Shown here in pieces: positions 839 to 58,300 of a DNA stretch of 64,000 nt (position 1 is the first letter of the stretch; each line of letters starts with the position of its first letter). Location: positions 5,821,014-5,885,013 of the forward strand of contig JABAKD010000026.1 in the NCBI GenBank assembly GCA_012845835.1. The letters are read 5' to 3'. The notes below the pieces were generated by a model. The model did not search any database. It saw only the letters and a program-made list of their open reading frames with translations, and was not told the DNA's origin. This DNA is from Undaria pinnatifida. Taxonomy: Eukaryota > Sar > Phaeophyceae > Laminariales > Alariaceae. The position numbers and the translations under genes were made by a program.

Positions 839-1299
839 AAAGCGGTACTCCTCTGTGTAAATACCAGGTACTGCTGATGATGTACATGTATGCTTCGAAG
901 TATGATATCATCGTACCGTACTGCTGCACGTACCTGAAGCAAGTCGCACATCAACCAGAAAATAACAGTGAAACCGGAAGTCAGCGTACGTACGTATCAG
1001 GCCTATGCTAAAACGTGCGTTTCAAGGCTCGAGGCCGAAACCGAGTACATTGCATACCAAGGAATGAAAACGATGTATGTACAAATCCGCGGAGAAAACA
1101 GTTGACAAAAAAAAAAATCGAGATAATATATTATATGAAACGAACAAGTGTTCGTTGTACGAACACACACAGAAAAATGTACAAATCCGCGGAGAAAACA
1201 GCAACGAAAGAAAAACAACAGCATATCGTATAGAACGAAGAAGTGTACGAACACATTGCCGGCCCCCTCATAAGGAAGAAAGAGCCCCACAAAAAACTT

Positions 1300-2218
1300 G
1301 GCCTAAAAAATTACGGGGAAATGCGAAATTCGACAGCTGTTATACAGTATACTGAAGTTGTTGGCTTCCAACGCCCTGAATGAATATCACGGGGGAAATA
1401 ATAAATTCGACAGCTGGTACGTTGAACCTTGTGCTTGGCCCCAAAATCACGGGGAAATAAGAAATTCTACACCTTTTTTATGGAAGTTAGTGGCTTTGAA
1501 TACCCTGAAAATTACGGGGATTTAAGAAATTCGGCAGCTGGTACGTTGAAGTTGGTGTACGACACACCCTTTCTGAAATATTTTAGCCTAACACTGATGC
1601 ATCGGTTTCCTGTCAGAGAGCCGGTACTTGCATTTTGCTCGAATATTCACACGTCGGACAGATCACGACCTACAGCAATAGCTCATGTAGATCCTCTACC
1701 TGTCGATATCATATGTTGTGCAGGATCTGTGCTCAGCCTAAAAATCACGGGGAAATGACAAATTCGACAGCTGTATTGCTGAAGTTGGTGGACGACATGC
1801 CCTTTTCTCAACTGAGAAATCCAGCCTGAAACCAATACTGGTACATATCTCGGTTTCTTATCAGAGGGCCGGTACTTGTTTTTTTCTCGGATTTTTCAAA
1901 TATCGGACAAATAATGACCAGACCATCTACTGTTGTAGGTCATGTAGATCCTGTACCTGTCGATATCACATGTTGTGCAGGATCTGTGCTCAGCCTAAAA
2001 AATACGGGGAGATAAGCACTTCGACAGCTTTTATGCTGAACTTAGTGTAGGACACACCTTTTTAAATGCATCTTGCCTCAAATCGGCATATCGGTGTTTT
2101 CTCAACGGGCCGGTACTTGTATTTTGCTCGAATCTTTCACAGGTCGGAGATAACGATCTAGATGGTGTAGATCCTCGACCTATTGATATGAAATGTTGTG
2201 CAGGATCTGTACGGTGCA
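1300..2218. repeat. tandem array, ~230-258 bp units
   Basis: Units start with an ACGGGGAAAT..AAATTCGACAGCTG motif near 1512, 1741 and 2000. Shorter, truncated units begin near 1311, 1391 and 1444. The long units share the order GGGCCGGTACTTG, then GTAGATCCTC.ACCT, then TTGTGCAGGATCTGT. Spacing of about 230 and 258 bp shows a satellite-like local expansion. The last unit runs into family K DNA. Confidence 0.75.
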
Positions 2219-2392
2219 GATCAAACCCAGGAAGCGTGTGCTAGATCGTGCAGACAATGCGACTCCCACCCGGCAACATGATGATCTGTAGGCCCTGCAA
2301 ATCGTTTAGACCAGGGATCTACTGTATCTGCCCTGAAGGACAAATATCATACATGGGGAACTGATCTGTCTGATGTGTGGAATTTTTCCCAG
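2200..2392 (+). repeat. family K repeat ending at a splice acceptor
   Basis: It shares GTGCAGATC, AACCCAGG, a GTGCTAGA.C.TGCAGA block and GATCTGTCTGATGTGTGG with the copies near 42650-42905 and 27015. The right end supplies the pyrimidine tract directly before the exon at 2393, so a repeat probably contributes to this splice acceptor. Confidence 0.5.
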
Positions 2393-2504: not shown

Positions 2505-5500
2505 GTACAGACACGAAGCAAATTGGTGCGTTCATTATTAAGGTTCATGAAAGTACCACTGAGGTGCATTAAGGTGCTGTGATCACTTTCAACATACAGG
2601 TGTAAGGCATTAAGATACAATGAGGTGCAATGTGTTAAGGTGTTAGTGGGGTGTTAGTCCGTTTGACCACTTGCAAAAGGTTAACCAAAAGCTTACCCAA
2701 ATTAAGCCTTATAACACTCTCCCGGGGACCCTGAAACGGCGGGATACCAGGTCGGCCGGATATTCGGGCGGACCTGTCAATATCCAAGCGGTTTCATTTC
2801 CTGGGGATACCGGGGAGAGTATGTTTCAAGTTCGACATGGGGAAAGTCTGAAAAAAGTTTATTCATGGTGGATGTGGGACTCGAACCCACGACCCAAAAA
2901 CCCATGGTCCTGCCGACGACGCCATTTGTTGAGGTATTAGTAGGGTATTAGTCCATTTGACCACTCGCAAAAGGTTAACCAATAGCTTACCCAACCTAAG
3001 CCGTATAATAAATGCAGTATATAGAGCCCCAAAACCCCAAAACCGTCCCTATGCTAGTCCCAAGTGATTTGTCCCCGGAAACGGCTTTCCAGTTGTGAAG
3101 GCGTTAAGGCACATTAACCTTAACCCTTTTAGAGCCCCCAATCCCCTCCCTATACTGAATCCAAGAAATTTTGTCCCCAAAACGGGTTTCCAGTGGTGAA
3201 GGGGTTAAGGTACATTAACCTTCGGGCCCAATAAGGTACATCAACCGTAAGGTCCAGTAAGGTACAATATTGTACATTAATTAAGGTATCATACATTAAG
3301 GTACGTTAAGGTACTCTGATCACCTCAATATTGAGGTGTACGCCCTGCTTCGTCTATTGTGGTTCATTTGCATATTTTTGGTTTGTTCAGACAGACATGC
3401 CGATGTGAGACTTGTTTCATCTCTGATACATGTGTATCAACATCATTTTCGCTTGTTCTTCATATAGACACGCGGGTGTACGACTTGCTCCAGCTACATA
3501 TATCACACTGGTTTGTAGCATGATTTTCTTTTTTTCCTGAGTGTTCCTCCACGCCTGAGTGAGTGGAGCCTGTCCTGTGACCGCGGACTTGGTTATGCGA
3601 GTTAATGCGAGAACAGCAGATGCATGGCTTGCTTCAGCTGTGACATTACGCGTACATCGCTTTGGATTGCATCTAGTTTTTCCTGAGGTATCCTCCCACT
3701 CCAGAGTAACTGGAGTCTGTCCTGTGACCACGGTTGTTGCTGACTTCATGTGAGAACAACAACCGCAGTCAACAATAGTCAATCCTAATCCTTGCTACCT
3801 GGTATAGTTTTGTGTAGCTGGATTAGTTAAAACCACCGAAAGCTCATGTCTAACCCATGTACCACAGCAGTGGAAAAATGGTTCCACACTATTTATAGTA
3901 TCCAATAGGTTAATCCTCAAACGTAGATTGCAGTTGTAAAAGAAGGTTACAGACCAGTTTAGATTGGTTTACGTTATAGGTACACGTACGTGCGATTTTT
4001 TCAGATTTGCACGTAAACGCTTTGTGTGTGTTGACACAAAACTGATATTTTTAGCCATTTACGTCCAGCACTATTGTCGAAGTGTTCGTGCCGATGCCTC
4101 CTAGAGCGACGATCTCTGCTGCTGCTGTGGTCACTGAGTACGAGACAGAGATACCCGTTGCAAAAGACAGCAAGTTGTTTTGGCCATGCAATGAACCGCA
4201 ATGAACACGCGGGCAAAGAAAAAAGATGCGTTGGGAAGCGATACATGTATAACGATTCCCTAATGTGCAGGTCCGCACGAAACGACAAGCGTGGTGCCCA
4301 GACCTAGCCCTAACACTAACCTAACCCTAACTGCACCCAACGGCTTGGGCTTCGGGCTTCGGCGGCTCGAGGTCCGCTCGAGGTCGTTTGGGTTTTGGGG
4401 GCTCGAGGTCGGTCGGCTGGGGCATTCCTGCGGTACACGCACCGCTAATGAATTGTACCGTGCACATGGACAAACCTAAACCTGCTACTAATACTAATAT
4501 AGTAATTGCACGTTATTAGATACTCCGTAGCTTACTAAGATGAGCTTCCGCGAAATCTTCGATCTCACAGCTGCTGTAGTGTATTTTAATTTTTAGACTA
4601 TATCGGTGCGATTGTACGTAGCCGGGGTGGGATTTGAACCACAACCCGTTTACCACTAAAAAATTGACCCCACATTACTTCCAAGTAGTTTTTTGCGGTT
4701 GTAAGGGGGTGTTGGACCCGTCGTGGGCACACAACATGGGTGATGGTCGTTTGACCGCGTACAACAGGCAGTGACCATCCGATGTGGTAGCGGCGTGTTA
4801 CTGGTGTTAGGCGCGACGTGGGCACATGACATGGATGATGGTAGTTTGACCGCGTACAACAGGCAGTGGCCACCCGGTGTGGTCGCGGCGTGTTATCGGA
4901 GTTGTATGTAGCGGAAAGTGGAGCACCGAACAGTCACTACCTGGTGCAATGTCCCATCGTCTGTATTTCCCAGGTATGTTGCAACATTTTTGCTATGGCT
5001 TTGCTGATGTGAAGGATATTACCAGGTGTAAGGTGATGTTCTAAAGTATCGTATCTCTGTGCATCTCCGAAAAAATAACATTGGGGATCTTGCCCGACAA
5101 CAACATCGGGGATCTTGTTCTATACCGATAGTATATAGCAATTGGTTGTAGTACCTGCCTGCACATAACGTATACGTCAACATTGGAGATCTTGTGTCGC
5201 CCTAATTGTTTGTATACTTTTTAACCCCTTTAGAGCCCCCGAACCCCTCCCTATACTAAATCCAAGTAATTTTGTCCCCAAAAACGGGTTTCTAGTTGTA
5301 AAGGGGTCAAGTATGTACCAGGTAGTATTTCTGTACATTATACAACCAACGCTGGGGACCTTGCTCTTGTACAGAACTATTAATTTACGACGACAGACAT
5401 TGGGCATATTTTGACAGTCGGGCTGTAATGCCCAGCGGAACACGCTTTGCGTTGGTGTTGGAGCAGACGTACGTACGTACGTACACACAGCACGCACGCA

Positions 5501-10600: not shown

Positions 10601-13600
10601 GTATAGACTAAGTTGTAAACTCGTTTGGGCTGGCTGGTGATACTTGCCGGGTTTACTTGCGCGGTCGCTAATTATTTTCCGATTTTTTTTTTTTGAAGGT
10701 TCCCGCCCCCCCCCCTTTCAACTTAAGACACCCCCCGGGATTCCAAGCCGACCCCGTCCCGAAGGAAGGGGGAGTTTGCGCATCTAATACCAGGTATTAT
10801 GCCTCTAAGGGCCATGAGATGGTTCCTCTGTTTTTTTTTCTTGTTTTGTTTTGTTTTCCTATTCATTCTCCGGCGGATGGGGAAAAATATGTTGAGGCTT
10901 TAGTGGGGTATTAGTCCGTTTGACCGCTTGCAAAAGGTTAGCCATTAGCTTGCCCAAGCTAAGCCTTATAACACTCTCCCCCCCTGAAACGGCGGGATAC
11001 AGGTCAGCCGGATATACGGGCGGACGTGTTAATATCCAAGCGGTTCATTTCCTGGGGATACCGGGGAGAGCATTTTTCAAGTTCGACATGGGGAAAGTCT
11101 GAAAAAGTTTGATATTGTGGATGGTGGTGTTTGAACCCACGACCCAAAAAACCCATGGTCTGTCGACGACGCCATTTGTTAAGGTATTAGTGGAGTATTA
11201 GTCCGTTTGAACACTTGATAAAGGTTAACCAATAGCTTACCCAAACTAGGCCTTACAACACTTCCATGTATTTTCATACCAGGTACACGCTTGTGTGTCG
11301 ATTTAACTCAATTGCATTCGCAATCCAGCGCTAGCTGGCGTGTCCTTCGGTTCCCACTACAGCGATAGCGTGAGCTGTCCCTACCGGCGGTCCCCGTTAC
11401 TACTCCAGCAGCGCAAGCTGCCGTTGTATACGGATGCGTGAGTGTGTCGACCCGGCTTGACCCCTGAGGGTCGGGTGCGGTGGAGATAGCCACCCGGAAC
11501 GGAATCATTCCGGGTAGTGTGGGACGTGCGCAAGCTCATCCACTAACAGAACCCCCGGCATCTGGTTCAACCCCTTTAGAGCCCCAAAATCCCACCCTAT
11601 ACTAACATGGGATGAAATTGTCTCCCAAAGGGGTTTCAAGTTCGAAGTGAAGGCGTTAAGTGTACTTTTTTTCTCGTTTTTTTGGCTAAAAAAAATAGCA
11701 CGGAACGTGTAGAGCTCCTCAACTGGGTAGAAGAAAACGGATCGCACCCCCCACGCAAGCATGCATGCATGCGCAGGCATATTACAGCGGTCGCAAAGCT
11801 GAAAAGGACCAAGAGTACAAGCAGTGCAGTGACGACTGCTGATAAAGATTAATCATCACAATGGCGGACGAAAGAGGGTATAGTCAGGCGCACTCATATG
11901 CCTGAGCCATGTCCGTTCGGCCGAGGTAATGTTTTCTTTTCCAGCTTACCATGGTATTGTTATTTTATTTTATTTCCACGCTGAACCACGCTCTTCCTCT
12001 CACTGAGGGAGGGTACCTTACCGCTTTTTCGACAACATGGTTGGCATACTCATCAAATTAGTGTGTCCGAACTCTCACCCTAACCCAATGAAACGTAACA
12101 ACCATTGTACGGTGAAACCACCTTCGTCTCGTACACGGCAGTTACGTAGTGTGCGTCAAGCATGTTGTCGAAAAATTGGCAAGCTCTACTGCACTGAGGG
12201 CGTTCGTCCGCGTGACTCTTTCTCCGAGGTGGCCTGGCGCTAGTGGCACAACGCCTCGATTTTTGGGGGGGCGTGCCGGTTTGGAGGCGAAAATTTAGCT
12301 TGCGTTTTGGTATATTATTTCTTGCTAGTATGCGTCGTTTTTCGCACCGACAAGATTTTCGAAGCGGCACGAACTGGCGTGTTTTTTTTCAACATGCGGC
12401 GTTCGCTCGAGAAAAAAAAAAATCGGTGAGCTTTTTTGTCCAGGCCAAACGTTTGACGCCTGCAACGATAGAGGTAGCGCTTTTCTTCTGAAATGGTTTC
12501 TGAATGACGATGCTCCTTAGACCAAAATCGTCGGAAATTCGCCATTTCTTTTTTGCGTGATTATCGTTGTACACCTAGACCATGGGATTTTTCAGGTACC
12601 CGTTTTGTTTTGTTCTATCCAAGTTGTTTTTCGGGTTGAGACAGGTCATAAGCTCCCAAATTGAGGAAAACCTCAGTAAAAAACAACAACGGTTGATGCA
12701 CCTCTATCTTAGTATGCGTTTTTTTTTTTCTCTTCTTTTAATGATCACGTTCACTCTCCAGCTCAACTCGTACGAGGTCTTACCCTCGGCTCAATTGTTT
12801 GGACAAGGTCGTCATGGTCACGGGTGTCTTCCTTTTCCCCCCCGCCCCCGCCCCCCCCCCGGTACTTGCCTTCATTTTTATCGTGCACAGGGTTCAGCGT
12901 TCCCACTTTTCAGCTTTTTACGCTCGTCGATTGGCATCGAATTTCGCCAACGCACGTTCTCGCGCTTTCGGTGATGTCGATTTGTAACAAAGAGTCCCTT
13001 GTCATATTCGAACCTATACCCTTGACCTCATAGTTTCGCGGCTTACTATGTAGTGGAGCTATTGGACCACCGGGGTTTTGGGGCTTGTAGTACAACATTT
13101 TCCCCACACTGGTGCCAAGTGTTTTTCCCAAGGCACGTGGGAAAGATTCCAAGACGGCCAACCCTTTTATGTAGCAGTGCACTTCCGTTCCGGTCTGAGG
13201 ACAAAACAGTTGGAATTATGAGTAGGATAGCCCTTTCAGCACAGGGTCAACCAACCCTTTTATATACCACTGCTATTGTGGATATCATTCCATATTCCCT
13301 AGATTGTACCGCCTCCTCATCACTATATTCCTTCAAGATCATCTTGGCTCCTCGAGGCAGACTCTGAGGTTTTTCCTCATGGTTGACCCTCAAGCGTGCG
13401 GTTGCGCACATAACCTACCTCGGTGTGTCTCCACACCTCCATCTGAGAATGAGAAACCTGCGAAGGAACCACCGTCCCACACTATCAATATTGATATTAT
13501 AATAGTAGCTGCACTTCCTGCCCGGGGACAAAACAGACCAAACGGACCAAACGGAGTAAGCAGTACGTGTAAGCGTCGCGCCTTTGGGGTTTCTGAAGGA

Positions 13601-16600
13601 AAATTTACGAGTGAAACTGACGATATTGCAGCATTCTCCTCACAAAGGAAGCAACCGGGGCTCTGGTGGATTACTAGCTGACGAAGATTTTACTGTCGGA
13701 CTCCAATCAATGCAAGTGCCTGTAAGACACGCGCATAGTTTGCCCTGCCCTATGCTGCATGAAGAGCATGCTCGCACCATGATAAGAACGGGCTTACAGT
13801 TTGTTTTGTCGCTGTACAATATAGTATGATATAGTATGATATAGTATGATATAATGCATGGACACCCTATGGGGTACGCTTTACTTTCCCCGATATGCCT
13901 GAAGATTTAAAAAAAAAACGAAAAAGCAAAAAGGGGGGGGGGGCACTTGGATTTAGACTATTAATATGATTATTTTAGGAGTTGGTAGAGAGTTGAGGTA
14001 CGCGCATAGATCGTGCTGCCGTGTGCTGCGTGCTGGCACCATGATAAGACACCATGATAAGAACGCGCTTATACTTTGTTTTGTCGCTTTGCATGGGCTT
14101 CCAAAGGGTTGAGCTTTGTTTTACTCTATAGTATGCCTGACGATGAACCAAAAAGCCAAAATCCAAAAAAAGGGGGGGAGCAAAAAAAGGGGGGAGGGGG
14201 TTGGGAATTAGACTATTAATAGGATAATTTTAGGAGTTGGTAGAAAGTTAAACTCGATCGCGCCCTCCGCTCTCCGTGCGTTGCTGGCACGCGACAAAAC
14301 CAGGGGACACCTTCACCAAGAGCTTCGAAGTCAAGGCCATCCACACAGCAAGCGAAAAGGAGACCAGCACGTACGATTTCACCTGCCGCCTCGTGAATCA
14401 GAGGGGAAAGGTTTGCATGGAGTGCGACAGGGCTACCATGTTTCCCTTCCAAGTTCCTCCCTCCCCTCCGGACCTCTCGACCGGAGCGAAAGAGCCCGCC
14501 CCCCCTGAGACGGCCCGAGCGGGAAATACGGCTGATCTGCTGCGCGATCACGTCGTCAAGCAATCCGAAAAGCTAGGTAAGGATGGGTTTTGGAATGGCC
14601 TTTGTAGATAGCCACCCACGCAAACATGAAGGATATCGGTACAGCTGTGCGGTATTTAGCATGGAAACGGCCAAGCAACACACGTGTGAGAACGATACGG
14701 TCGACAGTTTGTCCGAGTTCTTTTTGCCCGAATATTTCGGGACAGCTTTCAAACTTTGGCTACGGGCGGGGGTAAGGTCCGAGTTAGGGTGGGGTTTGCG
14801 GTTAGGGTCAATTTTCAGGGCGTTTTATCCAACACGCCTTCTCGCAATACAGAAACCACACGCCGTACGCACATGATTCGATTTTTTCCACGCTGTAATC
14901 TGAGCCGCCTATACACGCCGTACACACGAAATTTTCATTTTTCCATACTGTAAAGAATCGTGTAGGATACAACGTGGAAAAAAAAGAAAAAAAGAAAAAG
15001 GTGTATACGACTTGTGGTTCCACTATTATTGGAAGGCATTTTGGATAAAATACCGCAAAAACTAAGACCCTAGTCCTAACCCTAACCCTAACCCTAAGGT
15101 AGGGTATGCTGGTATGATGTGGTTATGACCAGTGTTACGCCCTCTAGTCGGAAAGCCCCGAAACACGCCTCTGATCTGCTGCTTGATGACGTCGTCAAGC
15201 AATCCGAGAATCTACATTACACTAGGTGGTTGGAGTTGGTTGTGTAGGTCTGTTGGATTTGGTTGTTTGTGCATGACCAAGCGTGAATGTCCTCGAAACG
15301 TTATGGACTCGCCGTTCCTGGTTGATGCTTGGTATATCTATAACATGACTACAAGGCTCCCCTGCGGGATCCCGCAGGTCAAGGAGGGGACGGAGGCGTT
15401 CCTATGAGCTGCGATATACCAGGTATCTGTAACATGGAAAAACTGTTCAACACTAAATAAAAAGTAATTAGCCACCGCGCAAGTACCCGGGCGAGTAACA
15501 TCGGCCAGCGCCCAAACGAGTTTATAGTTTAGTCTACCAGGCATAGTATCAATGGTACGATATCATGACGCTTGCTAATATAGGGGTGGTGCTGTACCTC
15601 TTTTTGGCCCAAATATTTCTAGCGGACGGCTCTCCTCAATTATATAACTTCTGTACCTCTTTTTGGCCCAAAATATTTTCAGCTGGCGGCGCTCCTCAAC
15701 TGTTTATTTAACTACGACGTACTGTACCTTTTTTCGGACAACCTATTTATAGCGGACGGGGCTCCTCAATTATTTGACTACCGCTGTACCTATTGTTGGC
15801 CGTGACGGGGCTCCTCGCATAGGACGAGCGAGTGCTACAACAATACAGGTAGCACTTTTTGGCTCAAATATTTTATTATATTATAAAAATTTTGTGAATG
15901 CAGGAGAGCTCCTTACCCAAAAATGAGAATCGAAAAAATAATTATTTCTTTCTTTGCAATATGCGTTTTTGCATGCCTGTTAGTATTACTATTGCTATTA
16001 CTATTGCTAGTTGTTGTTGTTGTTATTGCTAGTATCAGGCCATGGGATTGTTCGCCGGGTGAGCTGCACGTTTCATTTTTTTTGTTTTCGATTCTTCAAA
16101 AAAAGCTGTTTTGTTTTCGGGTGGAGTATAGAGTCGTATTACTTTATCGTTTGAGGAACCACAGAAAGAAAAGGGTGTGCAAACTACTGCTGTGCACACC
16201 TTCACGGACGTGGCATGTGTAATACACTATTAATATCTGTACGTTTTCTGAATACAGCAGTACCTCGAACGTTTTACCAATGGTCTAATACACTATGTAT
16301 ACCGGTATATAGAGTTCACGTATAGATCGATATCTATGAAACAATACATCACTGAGTATCTATAGTCCTAACAAGCAGAGGGCCACTCAAATGACCTGAA
16401 GAAAAAGTGGAGAAACGATCCGGGATCAAACCAGTGTAATACGCCAATACCAAAGAAGGATTGTTATACGCACAACTGAATCAGAATTAGACAATTGATA
16501 AAACGTTCGAGGTATTTAGAAAACGTTCGACGGAATGCGTCTCGCAGCTTGCAACGCTAAGCACAAGTATCTACTATTCAATAGGTGGTCACGGTTCACG

Positions 16601-19600
16601 TACAAAACATTTCAAATCATTTTACGAGTACAGAAAATGGAAGTTTGGAAAAAGAGTTTTCCTCTGGCTCTCCGCCCCCCCCCCCAACAAAAAAACACAT
16701 ACAAGCTCGAATTTCGGTGCAGTCGATGCCGGGTCAGCTCAACCAGCGCGATCACGTATTTCTTTCGGCCCTTTGCCGGGCTGGGAGGGTAGTGTTAAGG
16801 TATTAGTGGGGTGTTAGTCCGTTTGACCACTTGCAAAAGGTTAAGCAATAGCTTACCCAAACTAAGCCTTATAACACTCTCCCGGGGACCCTGAAACGAC
16901 GGGATACCAGGTCGGCCGGATATACGGGCGGACCTGTCAATATCCAAGCGTTTTCATTTCCTGGGGATACCGGGGAGAGTATTTTTCAAGTTCGACATGG
17001 GAAAAGTCTGAAAAAAGTTTATTCATGGAGGATGTGGGACTCGAACCCACGACCCCAAAAAAACCATGGTCCTGCCAACGACGCCATTTGTTGAGGTATT
17101 AGTAGGGTATTATTAATAGTCTGTTTGACCACTTGCAAAAGGTTAACCAATAGCTTACCTTACCCAAACACCCTTTTCTTGTAACAGTAGGGAGCTGATA
17201 AGAATTTTTCGACAGTGCTTGCTTCCTTGCGCGCGGGATATTTGTTCCCGATGTTTTTTCCAACTGTTCACGTATGTAGACAATGGTACTAATTATTAAT
17301 GGCCATGGTAACGGTAGGTTGGTTAATTAACGCCTCCACAGCTGGAAACCCTTTTTTTCGACAAATTTACTTGAACTTAGTATAGGGAGGGATTTTGGGG
17401 CTCTAAAGGGGTTAAGCCCCTTTTGGGTAGGGCTTCAGAGGGAGAAATTAACGAAATATATGGACGATCCCAGCATCCGGAACGCGAAGCAGCCCGGGGC
17501 GCCGGCCAAAGGATGTGTGCCCACTAGTGTGTTCGCTAGCGTGTTCGAAACGCAACGGGAGGAGCTATGATATGTACACGACACCAAATATGTCAGGAGA
17601 CGGCACTTCAAGCCCTTTACAGACGGCAGTTTTCCAAAAAAATACCGTGACTGACGCCAAACTAAGTTTTAGTCTTGAAGGCTTGGTTTGACACCCTTGA
17701 CGGCTGGACTTTTTTCCTTGACTGGCCGTCTCCTGGCATCTTTGCATGACACACGCACCGCATTCTGATACTATTAATAATTAATAGCATGATAATATAT
17801 ACTGCTGCAGCAGGCTCTTTCTAGACGGTTTATATTATGATGCTGTTAATATCGACAACCTCTCGTTTTTGGTCGATTTCAACGGGCCTCAACAGGGTCA
17901 ATGCTCTGTTTGATTGATTGTCCGCTCTTTTTTTTTTCGTGCCTCCCGTTTTTTTTTCTGCAGCGGAGATGGGGGGTCAAACTCTGAGGCGATTGAGGGC
18001 GGGACAGCTAATCATCCACACACCAGGTGGGTGAGCGATCGGCCCATGACCTACCTCTCTTTTCGATGCTGATGCCCTTTTGGCCCCATTTTTGTCCCTG
18101 TTCCAACCTCTTGACTTGTTTTTAACCCAATCAGGAAAATTAAAAAATATACCTGGTACCTGGTATATATCGTTACTAATTCCAAGTTATTTTGTCTTAA
18201 AAAAAATGGATGCAGGTTTAGAAGGGGTTAATGTAGCTTATTCATACATACGAAGTATAGCTGTCCCTGGGGACTCGCGCAGCAAGACGTTTGCAACTGC
18301 TGTCGCCTCTAACTTGTGTGCGTTGGTTGATAATTTGGAGGGTCGTATTATTATCGTTAGAAAAAATGGAAATCGAGCACTTACAGCTGGGAGATGGAAT
18401 TTTTCTACTCGAAACTCATCTTTGCAAGCTGCGTGTGACATGTGATACGTTCGGCCGCGCGTGTTGTGTTACGGGATATGTTACAGATGAAAAATCTCGG
18501 CCGGCGGCGAAGTACAAAGCTCCATGAAACCATCTCGAACGGAGGCCTTATTTTTAGGTTCGGTGTAAAATCGTACGGAGTAGTATATAGTCTTGGGCTA
18601 CCATTTACTCTTGTCTCTAGTTCCAAGTGTTTTGTCCCTATGTCGGAACCGCGGCGGTAAAAGGGTTACAGCAGCAGTAGTAGTGGTCCCTCTACGGACT
18701 TATAATACGTCTACAGTGAGGGTTGATCAGTGCCGGTTTGCACGCTACACGTAGCGAATATGTGACCGCACTTTGACCCCTTGACCGACGGCAATTTTCC
18801 GATAAGTTACCTTAACTTACGCCGAACAACTAGGTTTTAGTGTGGAACGATCGGGTTGACGTTGTTGACCGCTGGACGGTTTCCCTTGACTGACCGTGTC
18901 CTGACGTATTTGATATCATATGTATTGCATGTGTGTGTTCTTGACATAAAACTGATACTCGTATTTCCACTCGTTTACATCCAGCACAAGCAGTGTCCGT
19001 GCCGATGCCCCCCTCCTAGGGAGACGAGCTTTCCTGCGGTCGCAAATTACGAGACAGATACAAGTTGCAAGTACGGCAAGGTGACTTGGCCATGCAATGC
19101 CAACCGCAATGAACACGAGGGCAAAAAAAAATGCTAGCCAGCACGCCAGAACATGCGAATTCGCTTGGCACATCTCGGAAAAAAGCAGTAGAATTGGGTT
19201 GAGGAGTTGTTGTTGTCGTTGTTCCCACATTAACTCGCATAGTCAAGTCCGTGGTCACAGGACAGGCTCCAGTCACTCTGGAGCTGGGGAATACCCCAGG
19301 GAAAAAACACAAACTTGGATGGTACACGCATATATCACAGCTGACGTAGTGCCGGTTGGCGCTAGAATGCCGGTATTTCCGCGTGGCACATGCCCGCGCT
19401 GTGGAGGGACCACAGCTATTGCTGTAATGCAGATACGGCTTGTATCGGCTTGTGCATCAATCTGTGACTCGTGGGCGAGGCCGAGGATGGTTGAACCGTT
19501 CGCACATGGGCTCTCCAAAGTTTCGGGGCGGGGTTGCTCCGGCTGCCTTGAAGAAAACTTAACAGTAGCAGTACCGTACAAACATATAGTTCCCTCGTTT

Positions 19601-32380: not shown

Positions 32381-32645
32381 ATATAGAGGTATACCTGGTA
32401 CCGATTTTTTTGGCTATATATATTTTTTTCTGAATGGGACGGGGGCTCCTCAACTCAAAAGTGGTCGGAAATAGGCCGTTTTTTTTCCATGACTCTTGTC
32501 GTGTACCTCGGTGTAATGGGATTTTTCATGTCCGACGGTAGTCAGTTTTGTTTTTCTCCAAATCTGTTTCTGGGAGAGGTCTTGAGCTCCCGAATCGAGG
32601 AACCTCAGAAAAAGAGTGGTGCGCACTTCACCTCTATCATACCAG
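32381..32645 (+). mobile_element. family M repeat, near full length, with TACCTGGTA insertion
   Basis: GATATAGAGGTA at the left and CACCTCTATC at the right, with GGGGGCTCCTCAACTC, GAGGTCTTGAGCTCCCG and CGAGGAACCTCAGAAAAAG between. TACCTGGTA at 32392-32400 interrupts the left end compared with GAGGTATATACCCC in the 33984 copy. Confidence 0.65.
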
Positions 32646-36707: not shown

Positions 36708-36925
36708 TACAGTAGCGGGGTCCCCCAGTACCCCGGTAAGGGTGGTGTGCCCAGAGCATCGTGGCCGGGCGCCTTATTGGGGGAAGCCCGTCTCATTCAT
36801 TCCGAGTTATATGAGTGCAATTCCTCATGTCGTGCCAAGCAATTTCGATTTTGACCGCCATTAGTGGAGTATCGGGATACTGCCTCATTCAGACCGCCTT
36901 ACCATTGGGGGACCCCAATACTGTA
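36708..36925 (+). mobile_element. pogo/Tigger-like MITE (AAGGCGG group)
   Basis: TACAGTAGCGGGGTCCCCCA at the left is the inverse of TTGGGGGACCCCAATACTGTA at the right, with the GTGCAATTCCTCATGTCGTG and AAGCAATTTCGA middle shared with 30668. It directly abuts the minisatellite. Confidence 0.7.
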
Positions 36926-38999: not shown

Positions 39000-41597
39000 T
39001 TTTTTCGTCCGCACTCAACGAGGGTTAGAAGTGTGCGAGACGTTTTGTTCATCTCCGAAGTCAAGGAGTTGGCGAGAGACACGCGCGCTGCATGGCACTT
39101 GCTCGTACGGCGCGTGCTCACACGGCAAACGACGGCTGACTAAACCACACTTACTTCTGGTCATTTTTTTTGTCGCGCTATATATGTGGGTCCACCAAAA
39201 AAAAAGGGGATGCTCTGTTGCTTTTCGGTATTATTAGCGATTGTTGTGCCAACGGTTATTAAAACTGCGTTTGTTTACGCCGTACATAGACAAGTAGTTC
39301 CCCCATGTGGGTGCTGGAGTCTGACGGTGGATTTTTTTCGCAACGCACGGGTCCACGGCGGTAGTCAGTGATAATCTTATACACGCGCAACACCACAACC
39401 TGAGGCGTTTTGCAATCGTTGGTGCGAACCTGCTTGAATTGAGCGTTCCATCAAAATCCAGGCGGCAGTGGGTGGGGCCAGGTTCCGGTGCTCAGCACGT
39501 CGGGGGCGATTTCTTTCGTGCGGTTGCCATCGTTTGGTACATAGAAACGCTTGTGTTCCATCCATTCGGAGGGGGGGGGGGGGGGGGGTACCAGGTGCTC
39601 CTCCGCAGCACGTTCATTGTTTCGCTGGAAGCCATTCATGATAATGATAATTTAAGTTTAGCTTTTTTTTTCGTGTGTGTGCCATTGTTCGCACTTGCAA
39701 CTTTTGCAACACACAGCACCAATCATATATTTGTTTTCTTTCTGAGGCAGATTGCCCTCCTCCATCGTCTATCTAAGTAAGCAAGCAGTACACTGAGTAT
39801 GAACACGGCAACAAATATGGTTGGAGCGGCGCATTCAACACACTTATCCTAGCTGTGGTTCTATTATTTGTCATGCTTCTCGCCGATCTGGTCGTGTAAT
39901 AATACGTGTCGCGTGCCACAAAAAAAACACGAATTTTACTTGCACAACAGCGACAAAAGAATGCGGAATGCAGATAGAGCAGCTGTCATAGCAATCGAGA
40001 AAGTTGATCCCCGGATTATGCTTGGCGCCACTTCATCCATCTTCCTGCGCGACGACGGCGACATTTATTCGGCCCACACGCGTCAAGACGAAAAGTACTT
40101 GCTACCTCCATCGTGCAGCACGCGTCTAGACAGAGTGCCTTTCAAATCGCTGGGCGCAGATGGGAACAACCGGTGGTGGCAGTATAGTAGTGCCAGTTGC
40201 CGCTATATATATGGTGCAGGCATTTATTTCCTGTTTGCACATATATGCCCTGGTATATATATGCTACTTACTGCTGTAGCGTCCCCAAATACCGAGGGGT
40301 GCAGTTCGAGAAGGGTTAATCGCGCCTGTTGAACTAAAATCATATTAAAGAAACATATATAGTCTAGTCTATAGACTATATTAAAAAAAATGAAAAATAC
40401 ATAGCAGTCTATAATAGATGAACATCTCACTGAGTGGCTCCCCCCCCCCCCCTACGCATGTATGTATCGCGAACAACGTCTGTTTCCATATTAACGTAAA
40501 AAAGCCAGCCGTTACCTGCGGGTACTAGCTATTATGATCAAGTAGTGAGTGGAGGTTTTCCGGCCCCCCTTCCTGGTGTAAAAGAAGAGTGTCATTATCA
40601 TCAGGTAGATACTCGTACATACATTCCTGGGGGGGTGCGGTAAAAAAGTACCAGCCACCCCAGATAGGTGAGATGATGCGATGATGCTGCTGTCGTGTGA
40701 CTCTCCGAGATATGCAATCTACTACTACTGTAAATCTACGGGCAGCGACAAACAGGAGTATAAAAGAGAGGGTATCCGAAATACGATTTCCCCACCTTCT
40801 ATGTGCCGTTATATAGCTACGTTATGCGTTATTTTGTTTTAGGCCGAGATTGATTGCCATCTCGTGACACAGTTATTATGATATTGCTGTTGTATTCAAC
40901 ATATGTGTATTCAAGGGGAAGCAAGGGGGGCGAGTGTGTGGCATGCGGCGTATCATATTGCCAGGTGTATCATACGTACGTAAAAGGGCGGGGGCGGGGC
41001 ACAAGTGAAAATGCTGATGATGGGAGAACGGGGGCCTGCTTGAGCTACGAGTGAATCACGAACGGTACATCATTTTTTGGGCATCATTTGGATTGCCGAG
41101 GAAAAGACATCATCAGCCGTGCTTGGAGCGTCCAGACAAACTGTTGTTGTACCAGGTACTAATAGTCCGCGCCAACCGTGATGTCTGCTCAAACCGGTCT
41201 ACGTAGAGGGTATAGAGCGTGCAGCACCATGACGTACGTACCCGGTGTAGATATGATACTCGTTGTTGCGCTCTCCTCGTGCTACGAGTACCTATCTATC
41301 CATGTTATACTACAGCCGAAACAACACCACCGGTACCTAGAACACAAAAAATGGCCGGAGAAAGATAGTGTGGGCAGATTTAGACCCTCCGTAGATACGA
41401 GTAGATTGCATGGGGGTAGATTATGAAGGTCGATTCAGACAGATGTATAGTCTAGCCATGTATTATTATAGGTGTGGGGGTAGTTTTATGTGTTGCTGTC
41501 TGTCGTCGTATTGGCATCGGCATGGATGGATGAAATCTCATGGAGCTGTTACAGATTGCCCACACCGCATTAACGCACGCACCAGGATTCAGATATT
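39000..41597. other. intergenic stretch without an assignable gene
   Basis: The frame at 39777-39899 would encode EYEHGNKYGWSGAFN then a membrane-like LILAVVLLFVMLLADLVV before a stop. The frame at 39868-40332 holds RAAVIAIEKVDPRIMLGA. Neither could be matched or linked to splice sites. G/C homopolymers occur at 39570 and 40441. A TACCAGGTA lies at 41150. Confidence 0.3.
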
Positions 41598-49300: not shown

Positions 49301-52300
49301 TTGAGTACAGCACTACTGCCTCTCGAACAGCTGGAGGAGTGGTATAGTTTGTCGGATGTCCATGCCACCGTTTTTGCGTGGCCAAAAGTTATTTTATTTT
49401 CTCTGTATTTTTGATGCATTATGTCCGTCTCGTATTTTTGTGGCACTCGGAGCTTGTGCTTGACTATGGGCATGTAACAGGGTGAAAAACTAGCACGAAC
49501 ATTGAGACGGGTTGAAAGAACAATTTTATGTGAAGAACATACATACACAGAGCAGTAGCACTAAGGGAAGTCACCGACATAAACATCCTTCATGAGAAGA
49601 CATGCGCACTCCGTAGAGCGAGCGCGCGATCGAGGCATCACACACAGCTAGCAAAGGCGAGGCTCGACGGAGTCCTTGACCTCAACGCTGAAGTGTATTC
49701 CTGAAGTGCAGAGCGCTGATAAATTATCGCGTCGCAGGTCATATACGCAAGGGTTCCCGTTTCGAAGTTGTGCATCTCTATCAAAGTGCAGCAGTACTGC
49801 TGCTCTACAGTATGTACCGTCGCTGATTTCTCATGCCCTCGACTGCTCATGCCACCATAGCGACAATCGATTTTGGGCCTGGCATATGCTCGGGAATTAA
49901 ATCGCCTTCACGGTACTCGCATGAGTGGAGCATGATATGCCGTTCCTGGTAGCTTGCTTTTACGGGCTGCTGTTGTCTGTACGTAGGGCTCTACGTAGAC
50001 AACACGAGTACGCTCGAACTCGAAACGTTCGATTTTCTGTTATAGCAGGCACCCCAGGAGGCGCCGTAAACAAAAAAAAAATGACACGCCGCAGACGCCG
50101 CAGGTTTTTTCCCCCCGTTGGACAAGAGGGGTACTCTAAAAACGAGTGAAAGTAAACGTAAAACATCCAAAGAAAAAGTGTTATTTTCTCATTTGTTCTT
50201 GTATTCACAACGCTCCGGTTTGTTTTTTGTTCTGACTTCTGGTGGATGTGGCGTTGCGTGTACGCATTTTCTACCCGGTACCCGGTACATGTTTTGCATC
50301 CTGTTGCGGTGTGCGTTCAAGCAGTCCCCGTCACTTACGAGCAGAGGAAGTTTTCACGAAGGTATTCGTACGTGCCAGGTATCATACGACTGCATGACGA
50401 AGCCGTCGAAACTATGGGGTGCCCTACGTGCGGCATCACAACAGTAGGAGTAGTGCTGTGATGATAGTGCTTTTTTGTCCAAGGTACCAACACAAAGTAA
50501 TTTGTTGTAGTGCACGGAACACGAACCAGTTGTATGTTGTTTAACCCAGAATGGTCATGATTTGCCTCATGAAATGAGACGAGATCGACCGAAGGCATTT
50601 TTTTTTTTGTGTGTGTGTGCTTTTCACGACACAAGAAGAGAGGTTTTTCTTTTTAAGCCCCTTTGAAGCCCAGGCATGATACCGACGTGAAAAGCGACGA
50701 GGTGGATAGTACCAAGCCTCTGGGAAGGGACACACAGCAGTGCGAGTGAGTGCCACAATGATGCACGCGTGTCGCGCAGACTCCTACAGGTCAGTTTTTA
50801 CACGCCCCTTACCCGAGCAAAACCAGGCTCTTTCGTGTGGTCGCTGCTGGAATCGTCAGTTTTTTCCCGTCATTTTTCCCCGCTTAAGTTCCATTTTTTT
50901 TTGTGTTCACCCTTGTGGGCAGCCCATGTACAGCGAATGTACAGCAGCGACCAAAAAACGGTAATTGCGACGTGTCCAAGCGTCTGCGAGCAATGTGAGC
51001 GAGCAGTACTATTAATAGTAGGATTATGCCGCACCCGTCCCGCGCGGCCCGTTGCTTTGTTGTTGTTGTTGTTGTTGTTGTTTTTGTTGTTGTTGGTGGT
51101 GGTTTTGTTGTTGTTGTTGTTGTTGTTGTTGTACTTCGAACACCTATTCTATCATCCCCTAATCAGCAGTACCCAATGCTGTAAGCATCAATGTTCATGG
51201 TTTATTTTCCCCTCTGCAGACCCAAAGGGGTTCGTAGCTACAATAGGCGTATAGTCGGAAAAACCTGCACCATCAGCATATAAAAAACACTGCGCCCACT
51301 CATATACTTGTAGTCTGGGGGCAGGCCTGTATGTATTACGTTGTTTCATACCAGGTACGCATCAAGTGACCCGGCGGTAGCGGTAGCGGGTGTTTTCTTC
51401 AGATTAAATCGTTCTTTCTGCCCAGCATGTGCACTCGATAGCATATATATCTACTTCGTGGTAGCCTAGACCATGCGTGTAACTTCGCTCCAAGTACCCG
51501 GGACATGGTTAAGTGCGACAAAGTGAATCGCAACAGCGGCACTAGGCTCAGCTTCTTTTTTTCTTCTTCATCCCATTTGTTATCCTCGCACTACTCTCGC
51601 CCTCCCTCCCAGTAGTAACTCAGATCCGGAGTCACATAGCGGGCCCTCCTCCCCCCTTCCCACTACGGTACCCGCCTTCACTTTTTATCGCGAGAGTAAT
51701 TCAGCATTTTCTTCCCTCGTCGACTCGCGTCGAATTGTGCCAGCATTGCGTAGCGTTGATTATTAGCATTGGGTCGTTGAACGGTAGCCCCCTCAACTTT
51801 TCTTTAACAAAATCACCGATTTTGAAACCAGCCCACGGCCGTATCTTCTGAAATACGGTGCCCTTGGCCACCCCGACGTCATCGATCGATAGTCCTTCGC
51901 GAACAAGAAATCATGTGGATATATACTTTTCATAGCATCCTTTCTCGTATCGAGCAGCCACGAAACGTTCGTTAAACAAATCGCTGATCTGGGGGGGGGG
52001 CTGTCGTAGAATCAGTCCAATTACCAATATCAACTATGGATACCATGAGTAGCATGACAACAACAAAGCAGCATCAGCGTTAAATTGACATTTTTTTTAG
52101 CAATATTATCCATCACGAGTAGCTCGACAGCAACGAAACAACAGCCGCATTAACATCAGTTTGCGCTACTGCTGTAGCAATGATACTATCCACCACAAGT
52201 ATATAGCATGGAGCGCGCGACAGCAACAATAGCAGCACAAGCATGCATTAGCACCATTTATAACAGTAATTAGGATTTGCAATATCAACCACCACGAGTA

Positions 52301-55300
52301 GCACCAACATGGTGTCGATATCGCGCACATGATGACACGACCACTGCTGCTGTCGTACATCTGGTGTTATATCGTACCTACGTGCTGACAGTGGAGCCAC
52401 AGCCTAGCCACAGCCTCTCCCCCACCAGAATCGTTAACTAAGGCGGCCGCTTCCCTGAGTCGCAGGGTAACCTACAGAGAACAACTTGTTTTTTTTTTGT
52501 GTTGCCTATTCACAATAAATCTGCGCTTCAACCTACGTCGAAATATGTAAATAATTTCATTTCAGCATTTTTGAGGAGCCAAGGCATGGCCGCAACAGCA
52601 ACTGTTAGATGTGCCTATTGAAAAGGCATCGGTCTAGGTGACCGGCCCCAGCTTCTGCGCTTGTCTGGCGACTTGCAGCTGGCGACCACCTCAGACCGGT
52701 GATCGCGCCCCTCTCGGTGTTGGCCTATCTTGTCGTGTTGTCATCTCGTCTTATCGTCATCTCTTGCCTTGTCATCTTGCCGTCGTTGTTGTCTCTTGTA
52801 GTGTCATCTTGTCATCATATCTTGGTGTGGTAGTTGTCTTTCTGCCATTTGGTCGTGCTGTCACCTTGTCATGGTGTTGTCTTGTAATGTTTTCGTCGTA
52901 TCCTCTTTGTCGTGTTATCACTTGGGTGGTCTTCTTGTTCGTCTTGCCGTTCTTCCCGTGTTGCCATCTTGACATCTTGCCACCTTGTCATGCTGGTGTC
53001 TCTTCTGTCCGTGTCCTCGCAGGCCTTTTCTGACAGCGGACAGCTGGCACCAGACGAGGCAATCAACCGCTTGGTGAGACATAAAAACGTTGCTAAAATA
53101 GCCCTCGCACGCTTAACGAGCTGCACACGACTACCAGGCACATCGATGGCAACCTAGCAACCTTGAAAACATACTGCAGAGTTCCATTCTCTGTTGATTA
53201 TGTAGCACTAACCTCTACAAGTAGACTTGTCAATCACAGCACAACGAGCTGCGCGCGGCCGAGCAATCTTGAGCGAAAAAGCAGTACGGTTCCTTTTGTT
53301 TGTTCGTTATGTAGCACTTCCCCCTTCAAGTAGACTACTCAAATCACCGCACAATCGAGCTGCACGCGGCGTGCAACCCTGAGCACAAAAAAACTGTGCA
53401 TTTCTTTTTTCGTGGAATTGTAGAGCACTACCCACTACAGCAGTAGACTACTCGTTCACCGTAGAGCGCTGCCTACTAGACTACTCATTCACGTGACGGA
53501 GAACTCTACGTAAAACGGGTAGAGCCGTACAATCACCGAAGTACATGCTGTCGGGTGCGACAAATCTCTGTGGCTACGTAGCGTTCATCTCCGGGGCTCT
53601 TTATGTCAGGTCATCCTCGAGCCTGGTATAGGTCGGTTTCGTGAGTTCGAGCCCCCCCGAGTGCATACTCGTATAAATTAGTGGGGACTTTTCTTGTGCA
53701 CAAATGGACTTGCGGAAAGCGCGAGAGCGTGAGTTAGCAACATTCGATGAAAAATCGACGAGCAGTGGGATTGCTGAACCCTATGCGCGATAAAAATTTG
53801 AAGGCAAGAACCGGGGGGAAGAAGGGACGACACCTGTGACCACGGCTTGTCCAGAAGCTGGAAAGAAGTGTGAAAAAAAGACGAAAAAAAAAGAAAAAAA
53901 TGTCCAATACGTTCTACCTTCTATATTTTGTGCACGGAAAGTCCAGTGTCCAGTAGTCATGTGTCGGGCTGACAAGCCTGCACAGTAGGAGTCCGTCTCC
54001 CGATAAGGCGGTATGCCCATATAAGGCGGTATGCCCATATAAGGCGGTATCCCGATACAAGGCGGTCGAAATCGCTTGACACGCCTGAGGAATTGCACTC
54101 ATAAGCTGGAATGAATAAGGCGGGCTGCCCTCTATAAGGCGGTCACGTTGCTCTCTATAGCACTTCACCACCTTTGCTGGTGGATGCCTTTATAGTGCTG
54201 CTGTACGTACGTAAGGGGGACGACGTTCGGCATGCTTAGGTTGACCTGATGTGTTGCTGCAAAAAGTTTGCCGGTACTAAGGTCAAGTGGTGTGTGTTGG
54301 CGCTGTGCTAGCGGGGGGGTCAATCCTTCTATTGCTGCAAAACTTATCCCACGCTACGAGTACATCCAAGTTGTTTGTCACCAAAAGCGCGGGTGCTGTT
54401 CTTAATCGGTGAATTTGCCGAGTAATAGTAACACCAGGTACCTGGTATGCTTTTTCCAAGCTAGCATCGACGCTCCTGCTTCACGAACAACAGTCTAAAG
54501 CTCTGCCGACGACAAACGCAAGACATGTGTTCGGAGAAAAAAAAGTGCGTTGCTACCATATGTGCGGTGTATATTTGCACCGTGCAGATCATAGCCATTC
54601 ATTTTGATGTTTTCTGAGGTCGAAAATTGCCGATGTGTACTCGTGCACGCTACGACTTTTTTTTTGTGTTAGTATTCGTATCCCCGCCGGAGATATGGTG
54701 GCTGATGTTATTGTGGATGGCCTGCTAAAAAAACTTGGTTAACCGGTTTTACATCGGCGGCTGTCTCTTATGTTTTTTTAGTGGACGTTCAATTTAGCAC
54801 ATCTCCTTGACAAACTGCACAACACTCGATACTCCCCGCTCGTGTACCACGAGCATCTACTTAGCTCCATTTCCCCCCCGGTCACCGCCATGCATCTGTG
54901 CGTTTTTGAGCTTTACGTGTACCTTTCGGCGCTGCCTGCATTGTGTGCTTTTTTTTGTTTTTGTTTTTCTTACACTTCTTCTTTCCAGCTTCTGGACAAG
55001 CCGCGGTCACAGGTGTCGTCCCTTTCTCCCCCCCGGTTCTTGCCTTCAAATTTTTATCGCGCATAGGGTTCAGCAATCCAACTGCTCGTCCATTTTTCAT
55101 CGAGTGTTGCCAGCTCACGCTCTCGCGCTTTCCGCAAGTCAATTTGTGCCCAAGAAAAGTCCCAACGAATCTATACGAGTATGCACTCGGCGGGGCTCGA
55201 ACTCGCGAAACTGACCTATATCAGGGTCGAGGATAACCTGATACGCCACCGGGGCGGCCGATAGTATCTACATGTGACTTCCTTTGAAACCTTTTTGCGT

Positions 55301-58300
55301 CTCACGTATTATTTAGCGTGTTGAACGACGAGACGTTTGGTCTTGTCGAGCTGTGTCGAGCTGTCTGCAGAACCGTACGTCACGCAAGGTAACCCCTCCT
55401 AGCCTTTTTTTTTTCTTCTTTTTTTTTTTTCTATCCTCCGGCGGATGGGGCAAAAAAAATAAAGTAAAGCTTAAGCTCACCACACACTTTCACGTATTTT
55501 AGTACGAGTCGTGTGTCGATTTAACTCAGTTGCTTTCGCAACCCAACGCTATAGCTGGCGCACCCTTCGGATCCCACTGCAGTGGTAGCGTGAGCTGGCC
55601 CTCCTAGCATCCCTCGGTCGGCGACTACTGAAGCCTGTTTGCTCGACAGCGGGGAGAGTGCGAACACCGAGCGATGCGTGAGCTCCTGTAACTGTAAGTA
55701 TCAAGGCTGCTGGTTGTACTTTTTTGGGCAAAAAACGTTTCTGTTGCGGGCAAAACACGTTTCTGTTTGGACAATTCCTCAAAGGTGGAACTCTGGGTGT
55801 AGTGTGATCATTTTAGGAGTGGGGATTGCTTTTTTTAGGACTGTTAATAGGAATGCTGGCCGAGTTGCGGGAAGGAATGCGTTCTTTGCTTCGAAGTCAT
55901 GTTTCGGGTGCGACAATGGCAATATTGTGTTCCGGGTGGCTATCTCCACCGCATCTGACGACCCTCAGGGGTCAGGCCGGGTCGACATACTCACGCATCC
56001 GTATTCAACGGCAGCTGCTAGTAGCTTGCGCTGCTGGGGTAGAAACGAGGACCGCCGATAGGAACAGCTCACGCTATCGCTATAGTGGGACCCGAAGGAC
56101 ACGCCAGCTAGCGCTGGATTGCGAAGGCAATTGAGTTAAATCGACACGCGACGTGTGTGAAAAATACGTGGAAGTGTGGTGAGCTTAAGCTTTATTTTTC
56201 CCCATCCGCCGGAGAATAGAAAAAGGGTAATATTGAATGCGGAGCATGTGGGGTATGTTGAGATCATTGTGCTGGGAGGAGCTCAGAAAAATCTTGGGAA
56301 CATTTTTAGAATCTCCTGCACCTCTAGCTACGAGCGTGGGATGAGTCCACCGTTTTTGTCGTGTGCGCCCCCCCCCTGCTTCCAGATAGTATCGGCGGCT
56401 GTGAACGGAATCCGTCGCAGGGGGTGTGCCATCTTGGGTGTTGTTCGGTCGGAAGAGCGTGCAGCAGTATTACGTGGGAACTCGATTTTCGTCGGGACCA
56501 AATATTTTTCTTTTCTTTGTTTCTTTTTCTCCGATTGACTTATGCCTGTCGTGCGTGTATGCGTAGTGATAGATACTACGTGTAATATATACGTGGTAGT
56601 CTTACTTGGGTGGCAATCGGAATATTTGGTTCCTCCAGGCGTGAGTAGTGAGACGTATGCACCGGCCTGGACCTGGCACATCGTAGACTGACTCCCGATT
56701 TCACTTTTATATGTTTCTGGTGGAGGCATGAATTGCGTCAGCTGTGATATATGCGTGTACCACCTTGGGTTGTGTGTGTTTTTCCCTGGGGGTATTCCTC
56801 AGCTCCAGAGTGACTGGAGCCTGTCCTGTGACCACGGACTTGATTATGCGAGTTAATGTGAGAACAACAACAACAACAATAGTGTATCAACAGAGTAATA
56901 TGTTCCTATGTACCAGGTATAGTTTGTTTTTTTGTGTGTATGTGTGTTCTAAAATGGTGTTGGGAGGGTACAGGGTACTCGGAACCAATTATTGTGGTGC
57001 GATTTTGATGCGAGACGACGAGGGAAGAAAGGGCTCTGAAGTCTTCTCGCGATAAAAAATGGAGGCATGTACACCGTACATCGGGGGGAGGGGCGAGAAG
57101 AGTCTGATTTAGTTACCCTTGATCTGCGTTACGTCTAGGGACTCCGGAGAAAAGAGAAGGAAAAAGAGTGCGGAGAAAATACATGCGATGAGCCTCCCCC
57201 CCAAAAAAAGTTGCCTAAACAGAGGAATATATCATACCAGTAGGTGTTTGGGTTCATGGTGGGTTCTGATTACCATCCATGCGGTCCTCTGTTATAGTGC
57301 ACGTGTGTGACCATGCCGCGGCGCGCTTGTCGTCACGCCTCTTGTTTGTCGTTGCGCATTGGGCGCATCCCCTTGTTACCCGTTAGATCGTCAAATCGTG
57401 TGGCCGCAACCGTGGTCGTCAGCGATCGTCGAATTATTTTCGACAACTTTTTCCCGTCTGACGCCGCAAAGGTTTTTTTTTACCTGGTAACTATATATAA
57501 TATATATTGCTCATCTCTTCTATTAGATAATAGTACGATAATAGTACGTTTTTTTTTTTTTTGTTGGCGCCCTTTTTCTGCAATGGCCCGGAGTCACTCG
57601 CGCGAGTGACATACCCCCTGTTCCCCTTGAGGTCTTTAGCTTGTTGTTTTTTCTTGTTTTTTTTTTTATATTAGCGACATGAATCCGCAATGCAATAGCT
57701 AGCCACGCTGCGTCAAGCATATCGTGTGAAGTCGTTTCGTCAGTGAGATACAAGTGCTTAGTATGTCAGCCGGTCGCCCCGGTGGCGTATCAGGTTATCT
57801 TCGAGCCTGGTATAGGTCAGTTTCGCGAGTTCGAGCCCCCCCGAGTGCATACTCGTATAATTTCGTGGGGACTTTTTCTTGCGCACAAATTGACTTGCGG
57901 AAAGCGCGGGAGCGTGAGCCAGCAACACTCGATGAAAAATCGACGAGCAGTGGGATTGCTGAACCCTATGCGCGATAAAATTTGAAGGCAAGAACCGGGG
58001 GGGAGAAGGGGCGACACCTGTGACCACGGCCTGTCCAGAAGCTGGAAAGTAGAAGTGTGAAAAAAAAAAGAAGAGAAAAAAAAAAGAGTCACTTGTGCGA
58101 GTGGCTCAAGTCCCGTAGTGAAAAAAGCGGGTAACCGCCTACCACACTCTTGGTCTAATCTTGTCACTTTTCCATTATCTTTCTCCCTCCCTATAAGTGT
58201 ATTCTATAACTCAGGTCCGCGGTCATGAAGCAGGCTCTTCTCCCCCTTCCCCACCGTGGCACGTGCCTTCATTTTTAATCGCGGGAAGATTCCAGCTACT

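Follow-up and report, generated by a model that had tools for sequence, protein, structure and literature searches.

A nine-base palindrome dispersed in more than 85,000 copies, tentatively read as the excision footprint of a TA-targeting transposon

How does one nine-base palindrome come to stand at 19 separate places within 64 kb of DNA? The window, a stretch of 64,000 nucleotides from contig JABAKD010000026.1 (positions 5,821,014 to 5,885,013 of the forward strand), carries the word TACCWGGTA, in which W is A or T, dispersed through unrelated sequence. The dispersion is real and strong. The best available reading of its origin is an excision footprint, an unproven one, with direct support for insertion limited to two repeat families. 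The genome analysed comprised 511,146,479 bases in 68 contigs and includes the window. Local statistics were obtained from the 264 kb around the window (the local region), and coordinates are those of the window unless a contig is named.

Abundance and distribution of the palindrome

The window held 19 exact copies of TACCWGGTA, compared to a mean of 0.36 and a maximum of 2 in 100 dinucleotide shuffles. All 19 positions listed in an earlier sequence-only reading of the window were exact, and its estimate of about 40-fold over chance agreed with the local region, where 78 sites were found against 1.7 expected under a third-order Markov model (~45-fold). The genome-wide comparison proposed in that reading gave 85,263 copies versus 3,475 for a reversed-pattern control, a ~25-fold excess. 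A chance origin was rejected by both the shuffles and the reversed control.

The copies were also not spread by one repeat, as the same reading had held. In the local region, 72 of the 78 sites lay outside the repeat mask, and masked repeats contained 6 of 78 sites versus 27.9% of TA dinucleotides. TACCWGGTA ranked first among nine-base words by number of distinct contexts (low-complexity words left out, at most 400 candidates ranked per length). The distinct-context ranking and the repeat mask together rejected a single repeat as carrier of the word. Given the shuffles, the genome-wide control and the mask, the combined explanation by chance, assembly artefact or one word-bearing repeat family can practically be discounted. 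One list of sites contained 90 entries, four of them counted twice.

The word was strict at its centre. With C or G (S) in the middle position, 9,212 copies were counted genome-wide (2,599 for the S-form control), compared to 85,263 with W. On the plus strand of the local region the centre was A at 31 sites and T at 47. CCWGG irrespective of its flanks was mildly enriched, with 135 occurrences versus 103 in the window. A literature search did not find TACCTGGTA as a separate word, and listings of papers on kelp genomes, excision footprints, brown-algal promoter motifs and HIP1 contained no report of it.

The sites in the window were as follows (no strand assigned):

862..870, TACCAGGTA site, exact match
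3796..3804, TACCTGGTA site, exact match
5316..5324, TACCAGGTA site, separated by a few bases from where a family L repeat copy ends
10788..10796, TACCAGGTA site, exact match
11277..11285, TACCAGGTA site inside repeat family F, relatives aligned
15417..15425, TACCAGGTA site, exact match
18150..18165, doublet TACCTGGTACCTGGTA with one TA in common (sites 18150 and 18157)
20184..20192, TACCTGGTA site, exact match
21162..21170, TACCTGGTA site, exact match
23733..23748, TACCTGGTA followed by a one-mismatch unit on the same TA (TACCTGGTACCAGGTT), mixed centres
28708..28716, TACCTGGTA site, exact match
28903..28911, TACCTGGTA site, exact match
32392..32400, TACCTGGTA site inside repeat family M, relatives aligned
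41150..41158, TACCAGGTA site, exact match
51349..51357, TACCAGGTA site, exact match
54432..54447, near-doublet CACCAGGTACCTGGTA with one TA in common, perfect site at 54439, mixed centres
56911..56919, TACCAGGTA site, exact match
57481..57489, TACCTGGTA site, exact match

The window looks eukaryotic: it contained 11 open reading frames (ORFs) of at least 150 aa, and searches for tRNA genes and for Rfam matches at gathering score found none in it.

Comparison of filled and empty repeat copies

According to the sequence-only reading, repeat copies with the palindrome are longer than their relatives, and alignment of the families was suggested there. Alignment revealed an extra unit in families F and M. 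In family F, the copy at 11277 exceeded most of its relatives by 8 bases at the site, the excess consisting of the 7-base unit that makes the palindrome and one further base nearby. The palindrome was absent from all seven aligned relatives (the alignment omits one of the eight local relatives), and for all eight, removing the 7-base unit improved the score. In family M, three relatives were aligned, none of which had the palindrome, and the copy at 32392 exceeded them by 9 bases; here the excess was the 7-base unit and two neighbouring bases. Two local relatives (one on L009, one on L002) are omitted from this alignment and one other copy was added. At the stricter threshold, M relatives scored better with the unit removed in 2 of 2 cases.

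Local relatives extending across the site existed for six of the 78 sites. Those scoring as inserted were 5316 (1/1, at a repeat boundary), 11277 (8/8) and 32392 (2/2). The control set comprised 1,038 TA-N5-TA words, 256 of them with relatives. Since controls often score as inserted, the number of inserted sites is weak evidence on its own, and the weight rests on the extra unit in F and M being exactly the word. For the doublet at 18150, in family D, no relative good enough for comparison was found.

Target-like flanks and TA-sharing chains

The flank profile, calculated from the 72 of 78 local sites kept after removal of near-duplicates, was symmetric to a distance of 11 bases from the centre. 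A pyrimidine (Y) prevailed at +1 (A only 6%), T reached 50% at +6, and A or T reached 75% at +7. The +6/+7 signal was seen in none of five other TA-bounded words; one of them, TACTCGTA, was also low in A at +1. The sites thus show a palindromic preference around TA (symmetric +1 Y, +6 T, +7 W), comparable in kind to the palindromic targets of Tc1-like elements (PMC7913693, PMC9976928).

Neighbouring sites were spaced in a particular way. Six pairs of ACCWGGT cores lay exactly 7 bp apart in the local region (0.05 expected), with no pairs at spacings of 8–15 bp. Perfect doublets with a common TA numbered 3,654 genome-wide compared to 2 for the control, which confirms the TA-sharing doublets noticed earlier; the doublet at 18150 is real. 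Among 50 doublet places listed, 34 had the same centre in both units and 16 had mixed centres. Plain duplication does not produce mixed centres, which suggest that separate events struck the same TA. The excess of same-centre doublets makes some tandem 7-bp duplication likely.

Age and decay of the sites

One-base variants were abundant genome-wide: CACCWGGTA occurred 24,623 times (control 5,523) and TACTWGGTA 13,174 times (control 6,200). Relative to perfect sites, and with controls or local Markov expectations as background (own arithmetic), the outer T>C change amounted to 9.6–11.2% per side, the inner C>T change to 3.2–4.1% per side and the central W>S change to 6.9–7.8%. The same changes in the same contexts of local repeats had rates of 5.15% (333/6,469), 2.44% (131/5,371) and 3.6% (116/3,225), respectively, in overlapping repeat windows whose counts are not independent. 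The resulting ratios of site to neutral rate were 1.9–2.2 for the outer, 1.3–1.7 for the inner and 1.9–2.2 for the central position. As these factors are alike, decay appears roughly neutral, and the sites would exceed the average repeat copy in age by a factor of ~1.5–2. The one-base variants roughly follow the neutral mutation spectrum, so TACCWGGTA sites have the look of relics in decay. An apparent protection of the inner bases, at first taken for selection, was largely accounted for by context mutation rates and the high mutability of T in RTA (R, purine).

Site density was lower in young repeats. Per 1000 TA, there were 6.8 sites in unique DNA, 4.6 in repeats of 78–84% identity and 1.15 at 84–90%; repeats above 90% identity had no site in 1,375 TAs.

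In the local repeats generally, transitions from A/T to G/C (3.14%) exceeded non-CpG transitions from G/C to A/T (2.26%), and the T of TA was unusually mutable.

A model of excision

We consider it quite possible, though somewhat short of probable, that the sites are old insertions of CCWGG with a duplicated TA, left as footprints by an extinct or rare cut-and-paste transposon that targeted TA. The transposon itself, its termini, the staggered cut and the repair step are inferred from the observations above. The element would insert at a TA in palindromic context (R-TA-Y, with T about six bases out), and the TA would be duplicated. Ending in CCAGG or CCTGG, it would be excised by cuts staggered by 5 nt, so that the 3′ overhangs would read CCAGG (or CCTGG) and could anneal to each other as C-G, C-G, an A.A (or T.T) mismatch, G-C and G-C. 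Once the mismatch was repaired to one base or the other, the site would read TA-CC(A/T)GG-TA. A later hit at one or other TA of such a scar would create a TA-sharing doublet. A self-complementary 5-nt overhang would account for the strictness of the word, its palindromy, the W centre and the bounding TA. An excision footprint of a TA-targeting transposon had been suggested by the sequence-only reading, and the extra units in F and M, the chains, the symmetric flank and the near-neutral decay speak for it.

Sleeping Beauty leaves the footprint TAC(A/T)GTA, with a central A.A mismatch, and the same pairing logic applies to TACCWGGTA. No other genome known to us carries identical footprints in such numbers. 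In excision of the Sleeping Beauty type, 3′ overhangs from the staggered cut become the footprint (PMC7827188). The likeness to Tc1/mariner elements includes the palindromic target context and, on the model, would extend to the TA target with its duplication and to the staggered cut. Footprints of Stowaway miniature inverted-repeat transposable elements (MITEs) in Triticeae (PMC1925063) are short remnants of terminal inverted repeats (TIRs) between TAs, with re-insertion at a TA beside an older footprint. Remnants between TAs and repeated insertion at one TA would be common to both cases; the Stowaway footprints described there, however, are several at one gene locus, whereas here one fixed word occurs genome-wide.

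Evidence weighing against excision

A number of results weigh against this model. The net length differences in families F and M were 8 and 9 bases, not exactly the 7 that insertion of the unit would give, and one unaligned M relative favoured the unit being kept (34.6 vs. 31.9 at the looser threshold). Three of the six sites with local relatives scored better with the unit kept and do not look freshly inserted. Among the 256 controls with relatives, 34 scored only as inserted, 89 as inserted with at least one relative, and 161 only as kept.

Filled copies were missing or at chance level in two abundant repeats, each examined at a single TA. For one TA of a ~37,000-copy repeat (an estimate based on 19 copies in the local region), the filled form had five genome matches, none of them in the repeat, compared to the ~100 filled copies that we estimate from a mean TA occupancy of 0.3%. 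For one TA of family L, with ~31,000 copies genome-wide (16 flank copies in the local region), the filled form had a single genome match, its context not read, versus ~75 estimated, even though copies of L diverge by 11% on average, compared to 8% in F and 14% in M. TATA stood on both sides at 224 sites, near the ~126 calculated from independent flanks (6/156 local flanks), and 10 of 20 fetched TATA-flanked sites stopped at exactly that length. With filled repeats absent or at chance level and (TA)n runs unsupportive, direct evidence of insertion is thin. This leaves three possibilities: most of the activity is older than these repeats, target choice is stricter than the flank model allows, or the sites arose mainly by a route other than insertion. 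In addition, the bin under 78% identity departed from the age trend, with one site in 990 TAs, and a simple target-preference model predicted 601 doublets compared to the 3,654 observed.

No source element was recovered. The full transposon with TA target sites and CC...GG termini envisaged by the sequence-only reading was seen neither in the local region nor at the transposase loci examined. The TIR scan of the local region gave no TA-CCWGG-ended element among the 70 of 186 matches listed, and TIR scans for elements starting with TACC or flanked by TA gave no CCWGG element among the matches listed. The PF01359 transposase search yielded no match, though no control genome gave one either. PF13358 had eight short matches (E 9e-5 to 7.5e-4), seven of them over the cut-off, and no search for PF03184 was made; at four of the eight PF13358 loci visible inverted ends read TATGGTCC, not CCWGG. 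Neither PF01359 nor PF13358 provided a candidate source. Tc1/mariner footprints are given as 2–4 bp long in PMC7913693, whereas the unit here is 5 bp plus TA. With no element seen for TACCWGGTA and the footprint length outside this range, we do not file the sites as Tc1/mariner members; they may work alike.

Other transposon-like sequences were observed during these searches. Four loci of ~1.75 kb each (L029, L030, L031 and L032) are ~99% identical copies of a DDE_3-type element with inverted ends TATGGTCCGTGCAC, apparently recently active. Open frames of 771 and 767 aa are present at two related loci, L033 and L034, respectively. In the window, 16261–16514 is a TA-flanked, MITE-like stretch of 254 bp in which 15 of 16 terminal bases match (CCTCGAACGTTTTA...).

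Alternative explanations

The same insertion evidence from families F and M would be expected of a micro-insertion at TA that propagates itself or is driven by repair without any excision, either by end joining that adds CCWGG at staggered breaks or by tandem duplication. The lack of a candidate element fits this explanation, as do the 34 same-centre doublets among the 50 listed and the tandem 7-bp duplication they make likely. A symmetric target-like flank and a W centre, however, are expected from a staggered cut by a dimeric transposase, and no break-repair process known to us inserts a single invariant 5-mer. We regard a micro-insertion as unlikely. Equally doubtful, in our judgement, is a putative binding site of a dimeric regulatory or architectural protein, kept by selection through palindromic contacts over ~23 bp. 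The flank symmetry, which reaches 11 bases to either side of the centre, is consistent with such a site, and so are the depletion in repeats and the outcome of the filled-repeat and (TA)n tests. Of 32 CACCWGGT-type variants, seven had a perfect site no more than 50 bp away, compared to 0.9 expected, and two clusters lay ~1 kb and 0.1–0.2 kb upstream of likely coding ORFs. These clusters, of 4 and 5 ACCWGGT units, are at about -48502..-48375 and -32802..-32722 (L014, L015); of the ORFs downstream, one is a kinase ORF and the other matches EsV-1-7 weakly (E 0.0037, under the cut-off). Against binding, the one-base variants follow the context-dependent neutral spectrum within a factor of ~1.5 of each other, with no constraint apparent. 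Symmetric two-base variants were little enriched (CACCWGGTG, 4 vs. 3.1 expected; TGCCWGGCA, 5 vs. 2.0), which rejects a degenerate motif with strong symmetric variants. Sixty-one light-harvesting matches were found which, like the weak EsV-1-7 match, hint that the DNA is from a brown alga; upstream of six light-harvesting genes there were 2 sites versus 3.0 expected in 17.8 kb, a small sample in which promoter enrichment was not seen. Nor would a binding site account for the extra length of the F and M copies.

CCWGG is a methyltransferase-type core, and the word might be a eukaryotic counterpart of HIP1, made and kept by a bias of methylation or mismatch repair. HIP1 (GCGATCGC) of cyanobacteria is a short palindrome iterated across the genome, with one-base deviations biased to its ends (PMC4390886); here, too, deviations are commoner at the outer bases. 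However, the outer excess comes largely from the mutability of T in RTA (5.15% vs. 2.44% for the inner C), and decay in the present case is largely explained by ordinary mutation. The mild enrichment of CCWGG irrespective of flanks also argues against such a bias, and longer copies are not predicted by it. Unlike the cyanobacterial case, the genome here is apparently eukaryotic, two repeat families have longer copies, and sites form TA-sharing chains. We consider a HIP1-like bias very unlikely.

Other dispersed and tandem words

A second TA-bounded word, TACTGCTGTA/TACAGCAGTA, occurred 30,703 times genome-wide (control 1,084). In the local region there were 22 copies versus 1.0 expected, none of them in masked repeats, and the mixed forms TACAGCTGTA and TACTGCAGTA were both absent (0.8 and 0.9 expected). 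Examples in the window are at 16253, 24252, 40269, 42539, 52167 and 53436. Self-pairing of the CAGCAG/CTGCTG unit would leave two A.A mismatches, and the overhang logic therefore fits here as well. One TACTGCTGTA-type site shares its TA with a TACCWGGTA site (-64058 and -64050), and a comparison by eye of the contig C1 places listed gave three that share a TA with TACTWGGTA (996330/996338, 439173/439166 and 2117067/2117060). A weaker third case is TACTCGTA, with 48 copies versus 9.0 expected in the local region, 12 of the 48 being repeat-borne. It is conceivable, if rather doubtful, that these words are scars of several extinct TA-targeting families, each with its own self-annealing overhang: CCAGG (one A.A), CAGCAG (two) and possibly CGAG and CAG.

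The TACTGCTGTA places listed on contig C1 were distributed as 43 on the plus and 3 on the minus strand at 1.2–3.0 Mb, and as 10 plus and 24 minus at 0.4–1.2 Mb. Fewer places are listed on C1 than the genome mean predicts, and the strand skew may be a listing effect.

The words GTTAATTAAC, TTTACGTAAA and ATGATGATCAT were rejected as comparable dispersed words, nearly all of their copies being in tandem arrays. A tandem satellite of ~189 bp with GTTAATTAAC and TTTACGTAAA occupies 67281–71618 (L019), and at 35947–36714 the 11-mer GTTACAGTACG forms a tandem array of 70 copies. The word CTATTAATAG/TATTAATA is dispersed in unrelated contexts (e.g., at 9069, 14213, 42204 and 51009); its flanks tend to GTA, giving TACTATTAATAGTA, another dispersed palindrome.

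Implications

If the excision model is right, short dispersed words could be read as a fossil record of where and when DNA transposons were active, even without any surviving copy, and a genome could owe many of its small insertions to excision scars. The model also predicts an unusual 5-nt stagger, to be sought in living elements of related species. If several extinct families did leave such scars, the genome would keep, in over 100,000 datable scars, a record of transposon activity that has outlasted the elements, and staggers of 5 and 6 nt would exceed the 2–4 bp footprints cited for living relatives.

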